Shown here: one piece after another, positions 2,530-10,158 of the stretch
Layout of the letters: each line of letters opens with the position of its first letter
Position numbering within the stretch: position 1 is the stretch's first letter
Source of the DNA: Candidatus Nomurabacteria bacterium RIFCSPLOWO2_02_FULL_42_17
Lineage (GTDB): Bacteria > Patescibacteriota > Minisyncoccia > Phycocordibacterales > MFVN01
DNA: 10,158 nt
Reading direction: 5' to 3'
NCBI GenBank assembly: GCA_001786095.1
Contig: MFVN01000005.1
Coordinates: 2,794 to 12,951, forward strand
Position numbers and translations under genes: made by a program
The notes under the pieces: generated by a model
What the model was told of the DNA's origin: nothing
Seen by the model: only the letters and a program-made list of their open reading frames with translations
Database searches by the model: none

Positions 2530-4337
2530 ACGGAAAGTAAAACAGGAATAATTAACGGATGCTTGGCTGTTTTTTGAACTAAAAATTTAGACAAATTGTC
2601 GGTTACGCGTTCTTTTACAAAATCAAAGTTTATTGGATTCTGCCCTCGCGCGCTTTCCTCCACGGTTCTTTTAATGATAAGGCGCGCGTGCTGGAGAAGT
2701 TCTTGGGAATTTTTTAGATAAACAAAACCGCGCGAAATGATATCCGGCGATTTGCGTAGTTTACCAGTCTGGCTATCTAGCACAGCAACTATTACGAACA
2801 TACCATCTTCAGCTAACATTTGTCGGTCGCGGATCACGATTTCTTGCATATCACCAACAGTAAATCCGTCTACCATCATAGGACCGGCCGGCGCTTTTTC
2901 TTTTAGCATACTGATTTTTTTTCCACCATCCGTAATTTCAATTATTGAACCGTTGTCCGGCACCACAATATTTTCTTCGGACATTCCCAATTCCAACGCT
3001 AAATCTTTATGCAGTTGAAGGCGATAATGGTTGCCGTGTATCGGAACAAAAAATTTAGGCCGGACCTTGCGGTGCAACCATCGCACATCCTCTATGTTGC
3101 CGTGTCCGGTAGCGTGTACGAAATCTTCGCCGGGCGTGCGGTAACTTATTATTTTTACTCCCTGTCGTGCCAAGCCGTCTTTCATACGTTCCACCTGCCG
3201 TTCATTGCCGGGGATGATGGAAGCTGAAAGAATAATCGTGTCTCCTTTTTTAAGAGAGAATTTTTTGTGCGTTTTTTGGGCGGCGCGGTTGAGTGAAGCG
3301 AATTCTTCGCCTTGTGCGCCGGTCATAAGCACAACCACGCGTTCCGGCGGATATTTATCCGCCTCTTCAATAGAAATAATTGTTCCCTTATTGGGCTTAA
3401 AAAATTCCGCTTCAACAGCCACTTCAATATTGGTTTTCATACTGCGTCCATCAACAGCTACTTTTTTGTTTAAGTTTTGGGCGATATCTACAATTTTTGC
3501 CAAGCGGGTGATGTGCGAAGAAAAAGCCGCGATAATTGTGCGTCCGCGAACTTTTTTTAGCAGGTTTTCCAGTCCTTGGTGCACTTTGATTTCCGGCAAA
3601 GCAAAACCCTCATTTTCTATATTGGTTGATTCGGAAAGCAAAAGTAAAGTTTTAGCTTCGTCAAAAATATTATAAACTTTCTCTTCATTTTCGGTTACTA
3701 CTCCGTCTATCTGATCAAGTTTGTAATCTCCAGGATTCACAATCCATCCATAAGGCGTTTCAATAATTACACCCATAGAATCCGGCATGGTGTGAGTTAC
3801 ACCAAAAAAGCGAACGCGCAATTTTCCGCATTGTATAACATCATTTTTCTCCACAACTTTGGCGTTGAGCGGTGGCAAATGAGGAAATTCGGCTTGACGT
3901 TTTCGCATCATAAGAACCGTCAGATTGCGCGAATAGACGGGCGGATTGCCGATGCGCGACAGCACTAAGGGCACGCCACCAATATGGTCCAAATGCCCGT
4001 GCGTGAGAATAAGCGCGCGTATGCGATCTTTGCGCTCTTCCAGATAGCGCGTGTTGGGAATTACATAATCAATACCTGGCGTGTCGTCGGTTGAGAAATG
4101 CATTCCGGCATCAATGATGATAATATCATTTCCGATTTCGATTACGGTCATATTTTTACCGATTTCTTCGACTCCGCCTAAAGGTACGATACGAATCACG
4201 CCCTCTTTGGGAGGAGGAATTTTTAATCGCTCATAGGCATGACCAACTGGGGTTCTTGCGGACTCCGGTTTTATATAAGTTCGTATTTGTGGCCGGCTAT
4301 GCCGGCTAGTTGGTGGACGTGTATTTCTTCTAATCAT
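2526..4337 (-). CDS. rnj: Ribonuclease J (metallo-beta-lactamase/beta-CASP RNase)
   Basis: This cytoplasmic enzyme takes part in mRNA decay and rRNA maturation, with 5'-to-3' exonuclease and endonuclease activity in characterised relatives. The 603-residue product carries the zinc motif HGHLDH (His113, His115, Asp117, His118), further metal ligands His182 in GVTHTMPDS and Asp204 in NPGDYKLD, ESTNIENEG (236-244), the beta-CASP signature SASIIPGNE (371-379), HATGHG (408-413) and VPIHGNHYRL (431-440). Residues from about 485 form the RNase J C-terminal domain. The first 45 or so residues are a basic, Arg/Pro/Ser-rich extension preceding the catalytic domain; such tails occur in actinobacterial and some CPR RNase J proteins and may bind RNA. 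The start overlaps the end of the solute-binding protein gene by 8 nt (ATGATTAG), and the stop overlaps the MFS start by 4 nt. There is no Shine-Dalgarno site. The family call is firm. Confidence 0.97.
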   Translation of the reverse strand: MIRRNTRPPTSRHSRPQIRTYIKPESARTPVGHAYERLKIPPPKEGVIRIVPLGGVEEIGKNMTVIEIGNDIIIIDAGMHFSTDDTPGIDYVIPNTRYLEERKDRIRALILTHGHLDHIGGVPLVLSRIGNPPVYSRNLTVLMMRKRQAEFPHLPPLNAKVVEKNDVIQCGKLRVRFFGVTHTMPDSMGVIIETPYGWIVNPGDYKLDQIDGVVTENEEKVYNIFDEAKTLLLLSESTNIENEGFALPEIKVHQGLENLLKKVRGRTIIAAFSSHITRLAKIVDIAQNLNKKVAVDGRSMKTNIEVAVEAEFFKPNKGTIISIEEADKYPPERVVVLMTGAQGEEFASLNRAAQKTHKKFSLKKGDTIILSASIIPGNERQVERMKDGLARQGVKIISYRTPGEDFVHATGHGNIEDVRWLHRKVRPKFFVPIHGNHYRLQLHKDLALELGMSEENIVVPDNGSIIEITDGGKKISMLKEKAPAGPMMVDGFTVGDMQEIVIRDRQMLAEDGMFVIVAVLDSQTGKLRKSPDIISRGFVYLKNSQELLQHARLIIKRTVEESARGQNPINFDFVKERVTDNLSKFLVQKTAKHPLIIPVLLSV

Positions 4338-6075
4338 TTTTTTGGAATATTTTCCAAATCTTTTCCGTTTCCACGTACCATTTATGGATCTCTAGAAAAC
4401 GGTCGGATGGAAGAGTTAAATTGTTTAAGTTCAGACCTTTTAAATTTTTAGAAACGACATAGATAAATTCAGGGGAATAAATAAAGACGGCTGGAGCGTC
4501 TTTGCGCACTTCTTCTTCAAACGCGCGGTATTTTTGGCGGCGGAGTTCTGGATCCGTGGTTTTAATTATTTCTTCCAGTATTTTATCGGTTTTAGAAGAA
4601 GTGTACATGGCAATATTCAAACCCGGAGCATTTCTTTGCGAGGAATGCCAGAAAACAAAAAGATCCGTACCTTGCCCGATTATTTGCCCAAACAGAAGGG
4701 CGTCATACTCGCGCGGATATATAACCTCTTGGTTCAATGTTCCCAGCTCAAAAGTTTTTATTTCAATCGCCATTCCAAGCGCTAGTAAATTTTCTTTTAT
4801 AATCTCGGCTGTTTTTTGAAGTTCCGGCGTATCGCCCGTAGAAATAGAAAATTGCAGACGAGTCGTACTTTTTTTACCTTTCGTGTCTTTTATTTGTTTT
4901 TCCAGAATGCCGTCTTTACCCGGTTTCCATCCGGCCTTATTTAACACCTCTTTAGCTTCATCGACGGCTGTTTCCGGTACAGTATTTTCGGTTCCTGACA
5001 AAACAACTGATTCACCGAATCCTATGGGCAGAGGCCCGTTTACACTTACGCCATAACCTGAAAGAACTTCCTTGATTATGCGGTTTTTATCCACGGCCAA
5101 ATCAATGGCTTTTATAACGCTTTTGTCGGTAAAAACAGATGCTTGACTTTGGTTGAAGAAAAGACCAAAAACGCGCGGTAAGACGGCCGAGGAAATCCGG
5201 TGACTGCCGTTTTTAAAGTCGGCCGCGTTTTCGGGAGAGATGGCTGGCGCTTGATTTATGTCGCCTCGATCCAGTGCTGCTAACAATTCTTTTTCATTTG
5301 GATAAAAATAGATAATTATTTCTTTAATATGCGGTTTACCGAAAACAAATTGCTTAAACGGTTCAAGTTCATAATAGGCCGGTATACCCGAGGATTTTTT
5401 GCTGATTTTTTTAATACGATACGGACCGGAGCCGATTCCGTTTGTGTTCAAATCACTGAAACTAAATTCATCAATTGAAAGTTCCTTCCATTTGTATGCT
5501 GGCAGTATGCCCATAACGGTGTTTTCTAAAAAAGAAGCATAAGGTTGTTTAAGAGTGAATTTAACCGTGCGTTCATCCAGTTTTTCAACCTCAACGCCTT
5601 CCCAGTTGGTTTTACGCGGACTTTTTAGCATTGTATTTTGCGCGGTTGTTATGGTGAAAATTATATCATCGGCCGTAACAGGTTTATGGTCGTGAAATAC
5701 GGCCTCTTTTCTTATAAAAAAAGTATAACTAAGACCGTCGTCGGATATTTCATATCTTTCCGCTAGGTCGGGTGTGATTTGGCCGTCGGGAGTTTTGCGC
5801 ATTAGGCCGGAATAAACCAAGGCGGTAAGATCGCGGTCAGCGTCAGAGATGGCTAGAATGGGATTGATAAAGCGCGGCGTGCCGATTATGCCCTCGGTGA
5901 TTTGTCCGCCAACCACCGGTGTTTCTAAACTGACTAGATTGTTAACTTTAACCGCGATCACTAAAACACTCAAACCTGCCACGGCCACCAGCCCTAAAAA
6001 TCCCCAATATTCTTTTTTAGGGAAAGTCCGAATGATGTCGTTTAAGCGACCAAGAAAAGCTATGAATTTTTTCAT
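4330..6075 (-). CDS. Family 5 extracellular solute-binding protein (peptide-binding type), membrane-anchored
   Basis: This 581-residue protein resembles the OppA/DppA-like substrate-binding components of peptide ABC transporters. Family landmarks are the start of the mature domain FINPILAISDADRDLTALVY (69-88), the region DDGLSYTFFIRKEAVFHDH (112-130) followed by PVTADDIIFT, and GIGSGPYRI (213-221). The N-terminus has a cytoplasmic basic segment and one hydrophobic helix at about residues 24-44. I see no cysteine, so it cannot be a lipoprotein and is probably held by an uncleaved signal anchor. No permease or ATPase genes are nearby, so the transporter partners must lie elsewhere, or the protein is used in another way. 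It begins 8 nt after the secG stop and its TAG overlaps the RNase J start, making it the second gene of the operon. Ligand unknown; peptides are the default guess. Confidence 0.9.
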   Translation of the reverse strand: MKKFIAFLGRLNDIIRTFPKKEYWGFLGLVAVAGLSVLVIAVKVNNLVSLETPVVGGQITEGIIGTPRFINPILAISDADRDLTALVYSGLMRKTPDGQITPDLAERYEISDDGLSYTFFIRKEAVFHDHKPVTADDIIFTITTAQNTMLKSPRKTNWEGVEVEKLDERTVKFTLKQPYASFLENTVMGILPAYKWKELSIDEFSFSDLNTNGIGSGPYRIKKISKKSSGIPAYYELEPFKQFVFGKPHIKEIIIYFYPNEKELLAALDRGDINQAPAISPENAADFKNGSHRISSAVLPRVFGLFFNQSQASVFTDKSVIKAIDLAVDKNRIIKEVLSGYGVSVNGPLPIGFGESVVLSGTENTVPETAVDEAKEVLNKAGWKPGKDGILEKQIKDTKGKKSTTRLQFSISTGDTPELQKTAEIIKENLLALGMAIEIKTFELGTLNQEVIYPREYDALLFGQIIGQGTDLFVFWHSSQRNAPGLNIAMYTSSKTDKILEEIIKTTDPELRRQKYRAFEEEVRKDAPAVFIYSPEFIYVVSKNLKGLNLNNLTLPSDRFLEIHKWYVETEKIWKIFQKND

Positions 6076-6451: not shown

Positions 6452-6721
6452 ATGACGATTCATCAATTTATTAAAGAAAGGCCATATCTAGTTTGGTATG
6501 TGAAGGATTTGAGCAAGCTCGACGAGGCATCTATTGTAGAGCATGTTTTGAATTATGGTGATTGGGATGATGTGCAAACCATGATTAAAATCTTAGGTAT
6601 TCAAAAGACTGCCCAGATTTTCCGTCATAAGTCTACTCCTGACAAGTTTGGCAGACAGAATTATCGTCCGGAAATTAAACATTATTTTAATTTATATTTT
6701 AACAAATACGCAAATGCATAA
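6452..6721 (+). CDS. Small unrecognised protein coupled to an AbiEii-like toxin; putative antitoxin
   Basis: I do not recognise this 89-residue protein with certainty. It is soluble, with no signal peptide or membrane segment, and aromatic-rich: RPYLVWYVKD near the N-terminus, VLNYGDWDDV in the middle (32-41) and HYFNLYFNKY near the C-terminus. I see no clear DNA-binding helix-turn-helix of the kind found in AbiEi antitoxins. Its stop overlaps the start of the nucleotidyltransferase gene by 8 nt (ATGCATAA), so the two are translated together. That arrangement, the autoregulation-like inverted repeat upstream and its small size make it the likely antitoxin or partner of the downstream enzyme. 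This role is inference from context. The start is supported by the extended -10 box immediately upstream. The gene is visibly more AT-rich than htrA or groEL. Confidence 0.6.
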   Translation: MTIHQFIKERPYLVWYVKDLSKLDEASIVEHVLNYGDWDDVQTMIKILGIQKTAQIFRHKSTPDKFGRQNYRPEIKHYFNLYFNKYANA

Positions 6722-7325
6722 AGAAGTTCTCACTAAAGGACAGACTAAATTTTTGTCTTTTGTAGCTGAATTTTCTAAAGATTTCGGACTGGTTGGTGGT
6801 ACGGTCATAGCTCTTTATCTGGGTCATCGTCGGTCCGTGGATTTTGATCTTTTTTCCCAAAAAAATTTCAGTAACCAAAGCTTGCTCAATAAAATCCTGC
6901 GCCATTTTAAAACCGATGAAATTATCGTAAATAAATTAGGGGAGCTCACCCTAATGATAAGGGGAGTCAAATTTACTTTTTACCAATTTCCATTTCTTCT
7001 CGAATACACTGAAACTTTTGAGGGAATTAGGTTGCCCAACCTTTTAACTTTGGCCGCGATGAAAGCATTTGCCCTAGGTCAAAGAGCAAAATGGAAAGAT
7101 TATGTGGATTTGTATTTTATAATCAAAGATTATTTTTCTATTGAAGAAATATCACAAAAAGGCAAACAGTTTTTTGGGGACAACTTTAATGAAAAACTGT
7201 TCAGAAGCCAACTTGCCTATTTTGAAGGCATAAATTACGAAGAACAAGTGGAATTTATGCCCGGGTTTGAAGTTCCCGACGAAATAATCAAAAAAGCGTT
7301 AATAGAATTTAGTTTAGAGAAATAA
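6714..7325 (+). CDS. AbiEii/AbiGii-type nucleotidyltransferase toxin
   Basis: This 203-residue protein belongs to the DNA polymerase beta-like nucleotidyltransferase fold used by AbiEii toxins; characterised members (AbiEii, MenT) use NTPs, and some modify tRNA 3' ends. The core motif is visible: GGT at 28-30 followed by HRRSVDFDLF (38-47), whose Asp43 and Asp45 would bind the catalytic metal. The second family motif is LAAMKAFALGQRAKWKDYVD (113-132), with Lys117, Arg124, Lys128 and Asp129 in the usual pattern. An in-frame TTG lies at 6648, but ATG 6714 is preferred because it gives the family's typical N-terminus and an 8-nt overlap with the upstream gene. All key residues are present, so the enzyme looks intact. 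It could alternatively serve in phage defence by abortive infection. No Shine-Dalgarno site. Confidence 0.85.
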   Translation: MHKEVLTKGQTKFLSFVAEFSKDFGLVGGTVIALYLGHRRSVDFDLFSQKNFSNQSLLNKILRHFKTDEIIVNKLGELTLMIRGVKFTFYQFPFLLEYTETFEGIRLPNLLTLAAMKAFALGQRAKWKDYVDLYFIIKDYFSIEEISQKGKQFFGDNFNEKLFRSQLAYFEGINYEEQVEFMPGFEVPDEIIKKALIEFSLEK

Positions 7326-7700: not shown

Positions 7701-9344
7701 ATGGCTAAACAAATTATTTGGAGCGAAGAAGCTCGTAAAAAACTAAAACAGGGCATTGATAAAGTCGCCAATGCTGTGCGCATTACGCTTGGACCGCGCG
7801 GGCGCAATGTGGTTCTGGATAAGGGCTATGGCGCGCCCATGGTTACTAACGACGGCGTGTCTATCGCTAAAGAAATTACTTTAACCGATAAGTTTGAGAA
7901 TATGGGCGCGGAAATTATCAAGGAAGTTGCTGAAAAAACCAATGAAACGGCCGGCGATGGCACAACCACTTCGGTTATTTTAGCCGAAGCCATAATTTCT
8001 GAAGGGCTTAAACGCGCTTCTATGGGCGCCAACGGCATGGTTATACGGCGCGGGATAGAGCGGGCGAAAGAAGACGCGGTGATTGAATTAAAAAAATTAG
8101 CCAAGCCCATCAAAAACAAAGACGAGATTCGTCAGGTGGCCACCTTGGCGGCCGAGTCCGAAGAAATCGGAAAAATTATTGCCGGAACAATAGAAAAAGT
8201 TGGCAAAGACGGCGTGGTGACAGTGGAAGAATCACAATCTTTTGGCGTGGACTCGGAAGTTGTGGAGGGTTTAGAATTTGATAAAGGCTATGTTTCACCT
8301 TATATGATTACCGACGCCGAACGCATGGAGGCGGTATATAATCAACCGTCAATTTTAATAACTGACAAAAAAATCTCGGCTATCAAAGAAATACTTCCGC
8401 TTCTGGAAAAATTAGCGCAAACTGGCAAGAAAGAATTAGTGATTATTGCCGAAGAAGTGGAAGGCGATGCTCTGGCGACTTTTGTAGTCAATAAATTGCG
8501 CGGAACTTTTAGTATTTTGGCAGTTAAAGCCCCGGGTTTTGGAGATCATAAAAAAGAACTTTTAGGGGATATCGCCGTAACCGTGGGCGCTAAAGTAATT
8601 TCCGAAGAAGTCGGGATTAAGTTGGAAAACGCCGACTTGTCGGCGTTGGGGAGCGCGCGCAAAGTTATTGCCACTAAAGATAAAACTGTTATCGTGGGCG
8701 GACGCGGTAAGAAGCAGGAAATTGAAAAACACGTAGCCCAACTCAAAGCCCAGCGCGAGGCAACGGAATCTAAATATGATATTGAAAAAATAGATGAACG
8801 TATTGCCAAGTTGACCGGCGGGGTGGCGATTATAAAAGTCGGCGCGGCCACTGAAACCGAGATGAAATATTTGAAATTAAAAATAGAAGACGCGGTCAAT
8901 GCCACTAAAGCGGCCATTGCCGAGGGCATTGTGGCCGGGGGAGGCACGGCCTTAGTCAAAGTAGCGGGAAAACTTTCTCGCCGTGTAGCGGCTTCGGGAG
9001 ACTCGGAGTTCGCTATCGGCTACAACGCCTTAGTTAACGCACTTTACACACCGCTCCGGCAGATTGCCGTGAACGCCGGGCGCGACGATGGTGCGGTTAT
9101 CGTGGAAAAAGTAAAAAAGTCCGCGGGCGACGCTTTCGGTTATGACGCTTCGGGCGATCCCGCCGCCGAGGCGGAAATTTCCGATCTTATAAAAGCTGGC
9201 ATTGTTGACCCCGTTAAAGTAACACGCACGGCGCTGGAAAACGCGGCCTCGGCGGCGGCCATGCTCATCACCACCGAAGTTGCCATTGCCGACGAACCCG
9301 AAAAGAAAACTCCGCCCGAATCCCCCGATCATCATGAGTTTTAA
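7701..9344 (+). CDS. groEL: Chaperonin GroEL
   Basis: GroEL is the ATP-driven tetradecameric folding chaperonin. The 547-residue protein is full length. ATP-site motifs include LGPRGRNVVLDKGYGAP (30-46), DGVSIAKEI (51-59) and GDGTTT (85-90); GGGTAL near residue 412 and the C-terminal equatorial helices are also present. The usual Gly-Gly-Met-rich tail that fills the chamber is missing: after residue 530 it ends in DEPEKKTPPESPDHHEF, an acidic and His-containing tail. The DNA for the last 19 residues and stop is repeated 579 nt downstream, after the RelE-type toxin, so this gene end may have been replaced during insertion of the toxin-antitoxin unit. There is no Shine-Dalgarno motif in the 14-nt gap after groES, so translation is probably coupled. 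Confidence 0.99.
   Translation: MAKQIIWSEEARKKLKQGIDKVANAVRITLGPRGRNVVLDKGYGAPMVTNDGVSIAKEITLTDKFENMGAEIIKEVAEKTNETAGDGTTTSVILAEAIISEGLKRASMGANGMVIRRGIERAKEDAVIELKKLAKPIKNKDEIRQVATLAAESEEIGKIIAGTIEKVGKDGVVTVEESQSFGVDSEVVEGLEFDKGYVSPYMITDAERMEAVYNQPSILITDKKISAIKEILPLLEKLAQTGKKELVIIAEEVEGDALATFVVNKLRGTFSILAVKAPGFGDHKKELLGDIAVTVGAKVISEEVGIKLENADLSALGSARKVIATKDKTVIVGGRGKKQEIEKHVAQLKAQREATESKYDIEKIDERIAKLTGGVAIIKVGAATETEMKYLKLKIEDAVNATKAAIAEGIVAGGGTALVKVAGKLSRRVAASGDSEFAIGYNALVNALYTPLRQIAVNAGRDDGAVIVEKVKKSAGDAFGYDASGDPAAEAEISDLIKAGIVDPVKVTRTALENAASAAAMLITTEVAIADEPEKKTPPESPDHHEF
9283..9344 (+). repeat. groEL 3'-end direct repeat, copy 1 (in the intact gene)
   Basis: These 62 nt form the end of groEL (Ile529 to Phe547 plus TAA). 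They match 9862-9923 at 59 of 62 positions, with an uninterrupted identical core of 53 nt (9288-9340). The differences are at 9287, 9341 and 9344 and are all silent in the groEL frame. Similarity stops abruptly on both sides. Confidence 0.97.
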
Positions 9345-9373
9345 TTGTATTCGTTGGTGTTAAGTGATACAAT
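9345..9373 (+). promoter_or_regulatory. Promoter of the antitoxin-toxin operon, leaderless
   Basis: A good extended -10, TGATACAAT (TG at 9365-9366, hexamer 9368-9373), lies 7 nt before ATG 9381, so the transcript would start at or next to the ATG. A weak -35, TTGTAT (9345-9350), sits at the ideal 17-nt spacing and begins at the base after the groEL stop. The insert thus carries its own promoter and does not depend on groESL. Confidence 0.6.
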
Positions 9374-9380
9374 AATTAGT

Positions 9381-9578
9381 ATGCTTACTTTTACTAAAGT
9401 TCCGAAAAGTTACAGTAATTTGACGAAAATAATGGTTTCTCAGGCCGTTTCCGATTTTCTTACCGACCCGGATTTTGGTTTGGAATTAAGTTCTTATGCC
9501 AAACGTCGGCTAAAACTGGCTCGCTTTGGTAACCAAAAAACCACTCCAATCTCTCAAATCAAACGCAAGTATTGTTGA
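9381..9578 (+). CDS. Putative antitoxin of a RelE/ParE-type toxin
   Basis: This 65-residue protein is assigned as an antitoxin from position and size: it lies 13 nt upstream of a RelE-type toxin and shares its promoter. The first half (residues 7-31, VPKSYSNLTKIMVSQAVSDF and following) looks like a short dimerisation or DNA-binding region, and the second half is basic (KRRLKLARFG, then QIKRKYC), suited to wrapping the toxin. I cannot name its family confidently. The frame stays open back to a TTG at 9345, directly after and in frame with the groEL stop, but ATG 9381 is preferred because the extended -10 box ends 7 nt before it. No Shine-Dalgarno site. It probably represses its own promoter with the toxin, as type II antitoxins usually do. 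Confidence 0.65.
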   Translation: MLTFTKVPKSYSNLTKIMVSQAVSDFLTDPDFGLELSSYAKRRLKLARFGNQKTTPISQIKRKYC

Positions 9579-9591
9579 TATTCCATAAATT

Positions 9592-9861
9592 ATGGCGTGG
9601 TTGATCGAATTTCAAAAAGCTGCCGAGGTTGACCTTGCTAAATTAGATAAGGAAGTAAGAAGACAAGTGGTATGTAAATTAGAGTGGTTAGTAGAAAATT
9701 TCGAAAATGTCGTACCCCAAAATCTAGGCGGAGAATTCAAAGATTTTTATAAATTACGCGCTGGTGATTGGCGAATAAAATATAAAGTTAATTGGAATGG
9801 CAAAAAAATCATAGTTTGTTACATTGATCACCGAAGCCGAGCTTATCAAATTCGTAAATAA
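9592..9861 (+). CDS. RelE/ParE superfamily toxin
   Basis: This 89-residue protein has the RelE/ParE fold pattern: WLIEFQKAAEVDLAKLDKEV at the N-terminus (strand 1 and helix 1), then LGGEFKDFYKLRAGDWRIKYKV (45-66), then a final strand with IDHRSRAYQI (78-87). Lys54, Arg56, Arg61, His80, Arg81 and Tyr85 sit where RelE-type mRNA interferases carry their basic and aromatic active-site residues, so it is more likely a ribosome-dependent RNase than a gyrase poison, though this cannot be settled by eye. Length is typical and nothing is truncated. It is transcribed with the antitoxin upstream (13-nt gap, no Shine-Dalgarno). Its TAA is immediately followed by the duplicated groEL end. Confidence 0.88.
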   Translation: MAWLIEFQKAAEVDLAKLDKEVRRQVVCKLEWLVENFENVVPQNLGGEFKDFYKLRAGDWRIKYKVNWNGKKIIVCYIDHRSRAYQIRK

Positions 9862-9923
9862 CCATCGCCGACGAACCCGAAAAGAAAACTCCGCCCGAAT
9901 CCCCCGATCATCATGAGTTCTAG
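9862..9923 (+). pseudogene. Headless groEL 3'-end remnant (repeat copy 2)
   Basis: This copy encodes IADEPEKKTPPESPDHHEF and ends in TAG. Its frame is closed by a TAA at 9855-9857, so it is not expressed as a protein. Relative to copy 1 it carries ATC for ATT, TTC for TTT and TAG for TAA, all silent. Silent-only differences show that both copies evolved as functional groEL ends, so this is not a decayed local duplicate. It is probably the original gene end of this chromosome, because the next gene's promoter follows at once. Confidence 0.85.
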
Positions 9924-9928
9924 GCGGA

Positions 9929-9957
9929 TTGATATATAAATTTGCCCGTAGTATAAT
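9929..9957 (+). promoter_or_regulatory. Strong consensus-like promoter for the last gene, leaderless
   Basis: TTGATA (9929-9934), 17 nt, TATAAT (9952-9957) is a near-consensus sigma-70 promoter. The -10 box ends 6 nt before ATG 9964, so transcription should begin at or next to the start codon. It lies 5 nt after the stop of groEL copy 2. Confidence 0.75.
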
Positions 9958-9963
9958 GGCTGT

Positions 9964-10158
9964 ATGAAAAAAGTAGTCAAAGAAACGCCTAAATATGTGA
10001 CTGAAAAAACTTTTGAACAGAGTATGCGGGCTATTACAAGGTCTTTTGAAAGAGTTGATGAAGCATTTGAAAGAGTTGATGAAGCATTTGAAAGAGTTAA
10101 TAAGGCATTGGAAATAATAGTTAAAGAGATCAGAACAATTCATGAAGACAATAAATAT
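9964..10158 (+). CDS. Coiled-coil protein with FERVDEA heptads (partial, runs off the window)
   Basis: The reading frame is open from ATG 9964 to the window edge (65 codons, no stop). After a basic N-terminus (MKKVVKETPKY) comes TEKTFEQSMRAITRS, then three seven-residue repeats FERVDEA, FERVDEA, FERVNKA, then a further helical stretch (LEIIVKEIRTIHEDNKY). Phe and Val at fixed heptad positions predict a coiled coil. No catalytic motif is visible and I do not recognise a family. The start is supported by the strong promoter ending 6 nt upstream. The role is unknown; such heptad proteins often oligomerise. Confidence 0.65.
   Translation, partial: MKKVVKETPKYVTEKTFEQSMRAITRSFERVDEAFERVDEAFERVNKALEIIVKEIRTIHEDNKY
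10045..10107 (+). repeat. Three 21-nt tandem repeats encoding heptads
   Basis: Units at 10045-10065 and 10066-10086 are identical over all 21 nt. The third (10087-10107) differs at two positions, changing Asp-Glu to Asn-Lys. The period equals one coiled-coil heptad, so gain or loss of units keeps the frame. Confidence 0.93.

Follow-up and report, generated by a model that had tools for sequence, protein, structure and literature searches.

A toxin-antitoxin pair bracketed by two diverged groEL ends in a Nomurabacteria genome, and related loci at other gene ends

The groEL locus and its duplicated gene end

The window analysed here is a 10,158-nt stretch of contig MFVN01000005.1 (positions 2,794 to 12,951, forward strand) of Candidatus Nomurabacteria bacterium RIFCSPLOWO2_02_FULL_42_17, in which a small toxin-antitoxin (TA) pair lies between the chaperonin gene groEL and a second copy of the groEL end. 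The groEL, repeat, TA and downstream features described for the window are on its + strand. The groEL open reading frame (ORF; 7701..9344) is intact, encodes 547 aa and matches Pfam Cpn60_TCP1 with 222 bits; its final 62 nt, TAA stop included, form repeat copy 1 (9283..9344). A spacer of 36 nt (9345..9380), judged by eye to be the likely TA promoter, leads from the groEL stop to the ATG of an antitoxin ORF of 65 aa (9381..9578), which is followed by a toxin ORF of 89 aa (9592..9861). Repeat copy 2 (9862..9923) begins at the base directly after the toxin stop and consists of a groEL end with a TAG stop, the rest of the gene being absent; it is interpreted as a recombination scar.

The two copies are identical at 59 of 62 positions and lie 579 nt apart, start to start. 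They differ by ATT/ATC, TTT/TTC and TAA/TAG, all three silent and one a change of stop codon; the chance that three random changes here are all silent is 0.009 for any change and 0.045 for transitions only. The repeat scores 112, and in a cross-locus null 3 of 756 scores exceed 36 (47, 132 and 148), these three outliers being pairs of tktC loci from one genus. The groEL-end repeat is far above chance. The original prediction had described the 62-nt recurrence 579 nt downstream, the preservation of protein and stop by all three differences, the fit of the TA pair between the groEL stop and copy 2 (with the toxin stop abutting the repeat) and a unit free of any integrase. Recomputation gives the same values and confirms the arrangement: the space between the copies fully contains, as ORFs of at least 40 aa, the antitoxin frame, the toxin and, on the opposite strand, an ORF of 42 aa, none of these being an integrase.

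The toxin matches Pfam PF05016 with 35.4 bits against a cut-off of 23 and is thus assigned to the RelE/ParE superfamily; it scores 22.7 bits against NCBIfam RelE_StbE, under the cut-off of 27.9, and a profile built from 12 toxin relatives matches solved RelE-type toxins. The antitoxin has no family match in Pfam, NCBIfam or PADLOC. It aligns with ORFs preceding toxins at 10 other loci, and a DPDxG motif is common to the alignment (11 loci, picked from 54 entered). From the toxin model match and the adjacent, co-occurring antitoxin-like ORF, the pair is a predicted type II TA of the RelE/ParE superfamily.

The window stops at the contig end, 235 nt past copy 2, and an assembly chimera therefore had to be considered. 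The exact toxin is listed on 26 database contigs, and the groEL protein in its exact form on 5; in both cases the longest contig has 14,826 nt (the contig here is 12,951 nt). A variant protein, P0003 (2 contigs), equals the toxin through residue 47 and then continues as LIYKFARSIMIA; the window after copy 2 reads LGGLIYKFARSIMAV, which is very like this continuation. A 10-bp word in the toxin gene (9723..9732) recurs at 9919..9928, where it spans the TAG stop of copy 2, and is the apparent joint of the deletion. P0003 seems to be a natural variant in which the second half of the toxin and, on this reading, the second groEL end were lost. That P0003 runs into downstream-like sequence supports a linkage, in other assemblies, of the TA to the region beyond copy 2.

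Related toxins at other gene ends

None of the 40 other genomes compared belongs to the source genome's own family, and no close relative of the groEL locus was found: the best other groEL was 74% identical among the matches listed for 397 genomes of the order, and a search of genome contigs gave, among the matches listed, a best groEL of 59% over the C-terminal part. Because of this lack, the surroundings of toxin relatives were examined. The protein database contains nine groEL variants besides that of the window; seven differ from it only in the last 59 residues, and P0010 and P0012 carry in addition one earlier change each (residue 46 and residue 346, respectively). Sites 516 and 529 are found in all four combinations among the variants, as recombination near the gene end would give. 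Across the ten variants, P0004-P0013, the changes cluster at residues 489, 516, 529 and 543, and P0012 and P0013 have shorter, altered tails.

Relatives of the toxin are present in 56 of the 397 genomes searched from the order and in 129 of 383 from the class. The best-scoring loci of the order-level and class-level searches were taken irrespective of their flanks, and a bracket was defined, by one procedure throughout, as a direct repeat around the TA scoring at least 44. Brackets of 30-140 nt are found at 14 of 52 TA loci (4 of 28 at order level and 10 of 24 at class level). Among the controls, brackets surround 1 of 2000 random positions drawn from 400 kb of genomes G002 and G026, 0 of 171 mechanical ORFs with lengths of 75-120 aa, and 22 of 2760 random positions across 69 other loci, some of which are cargo-bearing tktC loci. 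Left out of the 52 are L050 and L057 (too little flank) and L232 and L239 (too short); L223 (the window again) and L241, L242 and L250 (the same as L055, L050 and L056) were not entered at class level, and L049 (score 41) and L251 (score 43) fall under the threshold though their repeats look like copies of gene ends. Six of the 14 brackets are coding gene ends (the window, L042, L043, L229, L230 and L231; p = 1.4e-9 against 1 in 2000).

By Pfam, the bracket is the tktC 5' end in G344 and G391 (Transketolase domains), the ychF 3' end in L229 (YchF-GTPase_C), the 3' end of a solute-binding protein gene in L230 (SBP_bac_5) and, in L231, a 3'-terminal PEP-utilising mobile domain on both sides; the repeat of L251 is the recO 5' end (RecO_N). 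The repeats of L228 and L224 come from stretches that precede genes, a Clp-type ATPase gene in L228 and another gene in L224. In G133 the TA likewise follows groEL, and the bracket consists of the start of the next gene with its leader; no orthologous site was found in a second genome of that family. The toxin reading frame is disrupted in G133, and the toxins of G391 and G260 contain an internal stop. The gene-end cassette suggested by the original prediction is thus strengthened as a type by related TA loci at other gene ends and loses its particular link to groEL: further core genes serve as well, as do regions that precede genes, and the duplicated part of a gene may be its 5' end as well as its 3' end.

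Divergence between the copies is biased to silent changes. In six coding pairs (window, L043, L229, L230, L231 and L251; frames and ends placed by hand) 39 silent changes stand against 19 non-silent, where 22.8% silent is expected (p = 8e-13). L231 alone supplies 24 silent and 12 non-silent; the counts are 15 versus 7 without it (p = 5e-6) and 12 versus 7 without both it and the window (p = 1.7e-4), all of these p-values being optimistic because the changes in any one pair do not arise independently of each other. The count leaves out every non-coding repeat as well as L042 (short, Asn/Gln-rich) and L049 (nine codons), and an edge codon of L229 lies outside the 84 nt counted there. The TAA/TAG stop difference occurs in two pairs, the window and L230. 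Copies identical at insertion would leave an extragenic copy to drift irrespective of coding; as the pooled divergence is mostly silent, the copies mostly diverged while both were coding. Most of the divergence seems older than the insertion and to reflect two alleles from two lineages, a claim that is weak from the three changes in the window, where it was first made, and strong from the pooled pairs. A nonsense change in the L229 scar indicates that scars also decay following arrival.

The intergenic site tktN-tktC provides the empty state that was predicted for, and not found at, groEL. Of 16 genomes in the genus of G344, six are empty at this site (G205, G283, G397, G361, G168 and G376; gap of -2 to 4 nt) and ten are occupied, nine with cargo between tktN and tktC and the tenth, G344, on a contig that ends before tktN yet has cargo. 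The cargo belongs to the TA family of the window in G344, G391 and G260; G344 also carries a HigB-like protein with a helix-turn-helix partner (Gp49/DUF891 and HTH_3 by Pfam), and similar-looking pairs occur in other genomes. Small DUF1653 ORFs, with no tktC piece, occupy the site in G398, G399 and G236 (G399 by Pfam, the rest by eye).

In G391 and G344 the TA is accompanied by 5' pieces of tktC. In G344 one such piece stands before each of two toxin-antitoxin-like units, and the intact tktC follows; the longer piece matches its own tktC at 75 of 81 positions and that of G391 also at 75 of 81. The pieces of G344 and G391 end at different codons. The junction from toxin to tktC is alike in G344, G391 and G260, and the upstream junction is different in each. 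One similar and one variable junction are as expected if tktC was the homologous side.

Proposed recombination anchored in a core gene, and its alternatives

Homology-facilitated illegitimate recombination is the simplest account of these loci, given that the gene ends are foreign, the gene is intact, one junction is constant and the other variable, and no recombinase is present. With a probability put at about 0.58, the TA was brought in when DNA of a relative recombined with the genome, the core gene next to the TA serving as anchor. The incoming DNA would have carried this core gene (groEL in the window) and, immediately at its end, the TA. One side would be fixed by homologous recombination within the core gene, and the other, just past the TA, would be joined without homology into the recipient's groEL, 62 nt before the stop. 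The core gene would be kept whole, completed by the donor's end, with the TA beside it, and the recipient's own gene end would be left past the TA as a short scar (copy 2 in the window). The TA would be a passenger or a selfish driver. The earlier proposal that the unit arrived with a groEL end fits the window no better than a donor groEL with the recipient's end as scar, and the tktC junctions favour the scar. Direction of transfer, uptake of DNA as the route, choice of the native copy and any role of addiction in fixation are the inferred parts of this account. A partial ComEC match (76 bits) lies at a contig edge of the source genome, and Patescibacteria are described as naturally competent via comEC and pili in the accessible part of PMC12455944.

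Several observations weigh against this account. The chief weakness is that the boundaries are tighter than random illegitimate joints would be without selection or trimming: copy B starts -5 to 26 nt past the toxin stop in 12 of 14 units, and copy A ends 24-55 nt ahead of the antitoxin ATG in 9 of 14 (some ends set by hand in both counts). In streamlined genomes, selection to retain the promoter and the toxin may account for such boundaries, or they may favour a defined unit, for example a small circle. The groEL event itself is not reconstructed, since no close relative turned up with a groEL end in either the empty or the occupied state, and the combinations among the groEL variants could stem from mixed-strain assembly. 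At the threshold used, 38 of 52 TA loci have no bracket; the repeats of L058, L234, L237, L244, L245 and L248 are non-coding, and such repeats may be dispersed repeats, fitting other routes. Eight of the ten occupied tktN-tktC genomes have no tktC piece above shuffled sequence, and thus scars are not always left or kept. Both copies of L231 look truncated, which requires more than one step there. Lastly, GIY-YIG loci are bracketed by direct repeats as well (score of at least 44 in 7 of 30 loci, versus 8 of 2000 random positions with a null maximum of 45), so that the driver may be something other than the TA itself.

Insertion with long target duplication is a rather unlikely alternative, in which the TA inserts at staggered breaks (~30-140 nt) and the copies, identical at birth, drift later. 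It accounts for the tight boundaries around the TA and for a long direct repeat at both ends (59 of 62 in the window; 14 of 52 loci), and the repeat lengths fit the 'order of 100 bp' given for restriction-modification systems in the accessible text of PMC3874152. By contrast, a non-functional copy should gain mainly non-silent changes, whereas the pooled divergence is mainly silent. The tktC piece of G344, moreover, is equally close to its own tktC and to that of another species, and the pieces in G344 and G391 have different end points, unless later erosion produced these.

A small circle is an improbable source of these arrangements. In this scheme the two copies recombine to release a 579-bp circle, with the TA and one gene end, which a single crossover then inserts at the corresponding gene end in another strain. 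The scheme accounts for tight boundaries, an intact gene, bracketing copies and foreign alleles, and recombination at short repeats within the locus is evident from the deletion variant P0003. It predicts that different genomes share their junctions at a given gene, however, and the tktC pieces end at different codons, unless eroded later; 62 bp is also a short homology for RecA.

It is very unlikely that the groEL end was first duplicated locally in tandem and the TA then inserted between the copies: two adjacent copies are present as it would have them, but two events at one place would be needed in many unrelated loci and the divergence is silent-biased. An assembly chimera of two strains, suggested by the contig ending soon after copy 2, deserves the least credence, since the joint between toxin and copy 2 offers by eye no overlap for an assembler to follow, the exact toxin is on 26 contigs, P0003 enters the same downstream sequence and the pattern recurs in other genomes. 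Also disfavoured are an integrase-coded island, as no integrase ORF lies between the copies, and a transposon, as the 14 units by eye share no end sequence and there is no space for a transposase between the copies.

Neighbouring genes, known parallels and meaning

The surroundings of the TA hold further features. Downstream of copy 2, a promoter-like TTGATA-17-TATAAT (9929..9957, by eye) precedes the start of an ORF (9964..10158) that is cut by the contig end, has no Pfam model above cut-off and includes tandem 21-nt repeats (FERVDEA units) at 10045-10147. Directly upstream of groES, an AbiEii-like gene (PF08843, 46.5 bits) and a DUF6922-like partner (below cut-off) lie at 6452-7325; thus, TA-like pairs stand on both sides of groES-groEL. 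Among the listed repeats of the window there is no gene-end repeat around the AbiEii-like pair. At L248 a similar-looking AbiEii-type gene lies beyond the TA.

The 30 GIY-YIG loci of the order (L253-L282) represent another bracketed cargo. At 19 of the 30, the free-standing GIY-YIG nuclease gene has a tRNA gene within ~150 nt (ARAGORN), all seven bracketed loci adjoin a tRNA, and the repeat of L282 is the 5' part of the tRNA itself. In G039 (L025), an identical 81-bp repeat (3947-4027 and 4314-4394) surrounds a GIY-YIG-like ORF and looks like the start of a downstream gene. A GIY-YIG ORF (Pfam) at G026:C7:66023-66495 is bracketed by a 46-bp repeat of 87% identity.

Certain known systems share features with these units. 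Integrase-coded islands can restore the 3' end of their target gene and, as here, duplicate a gene end and leave the gene functional; by contrast, the unit here has no integrase ORF, and 5' ends and regions ahead of genes are also used. Known RelE/ParE pairs share the toxin superfamily and the small upstream antitoxin-like ORF, whereas the antitoxin here matches no family in three libraries and the pair is located between gene ends. Restriction-modification systems are reportedly inserted with long target duplication (Nobusato 2000 and Furuta 2010 are said to describe such cases). In the accessible portions of PMC3874152 and PMC3031569, restriction-modification units are described as duplicating their target on insertion, the duplications being long, variable and on the order of 100 bp. 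As far as those portions go, they form the nearest known parallel: both are selfish units without a recombinase of their own, with a long, variable target repeat, inferred from related genomes. Unlike those units, the cargo here is a TA of ~0.5 kb, and the copies are diverged, mostly silently, as alleles of core-gene ends.

Homology-facilitated illegitimate recombination is itself proposed, in the accessible sections of PMC5361080, for the effector-immunity modules of the Vibrio cholerae type VI secretion system, which have stacked immunity genes, and, in those of PMC2884548, for small variable segments. As described there, the V. cholerae modules share with the loci here one homologous side, one illegitimate joint and old gene parts that stay beside the new module in an array. 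In V. cholerae it is old immunity genes that stay, whereas here it is short ends of housekeeping genes, the cargo is a TA and the genomes are of the Paceibacteria type. The literature searched, which covered titles and abstract openings, with subscription papers mostly outside full-text coverage, yielded no account of TA pairs flanked by diverged ends of core genes.

The loci described above may tentatively be viewed as a broad class of recombinase-free 'gene-end hitchhikers' in Paceibacteria-type genomes, a possibility that is held at less than even odds. These would be tiny selfish units, RelE/ParE-type TA pairs and possibly free-standing GIY-YIG nuclease genes beside tRNAs, that spread between species via homologous recombination of the adjacent core gene or tRNA; the resident gene end would become the scar, and serial arrivals would build layered arrays such as the one at tktC in G344. 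The question addressed is by what means TA pairs on chromosomes move when neither transposons nor plasmids carry them. Scars of diverged core-gene ends record single transfers, together with the anchor gene and the allelic distance between donor and recipient, and so TA movement becomes testable by counting in existing genomes. Such scars would also document the exchange of DNA between species in largely uncultured bacteria.

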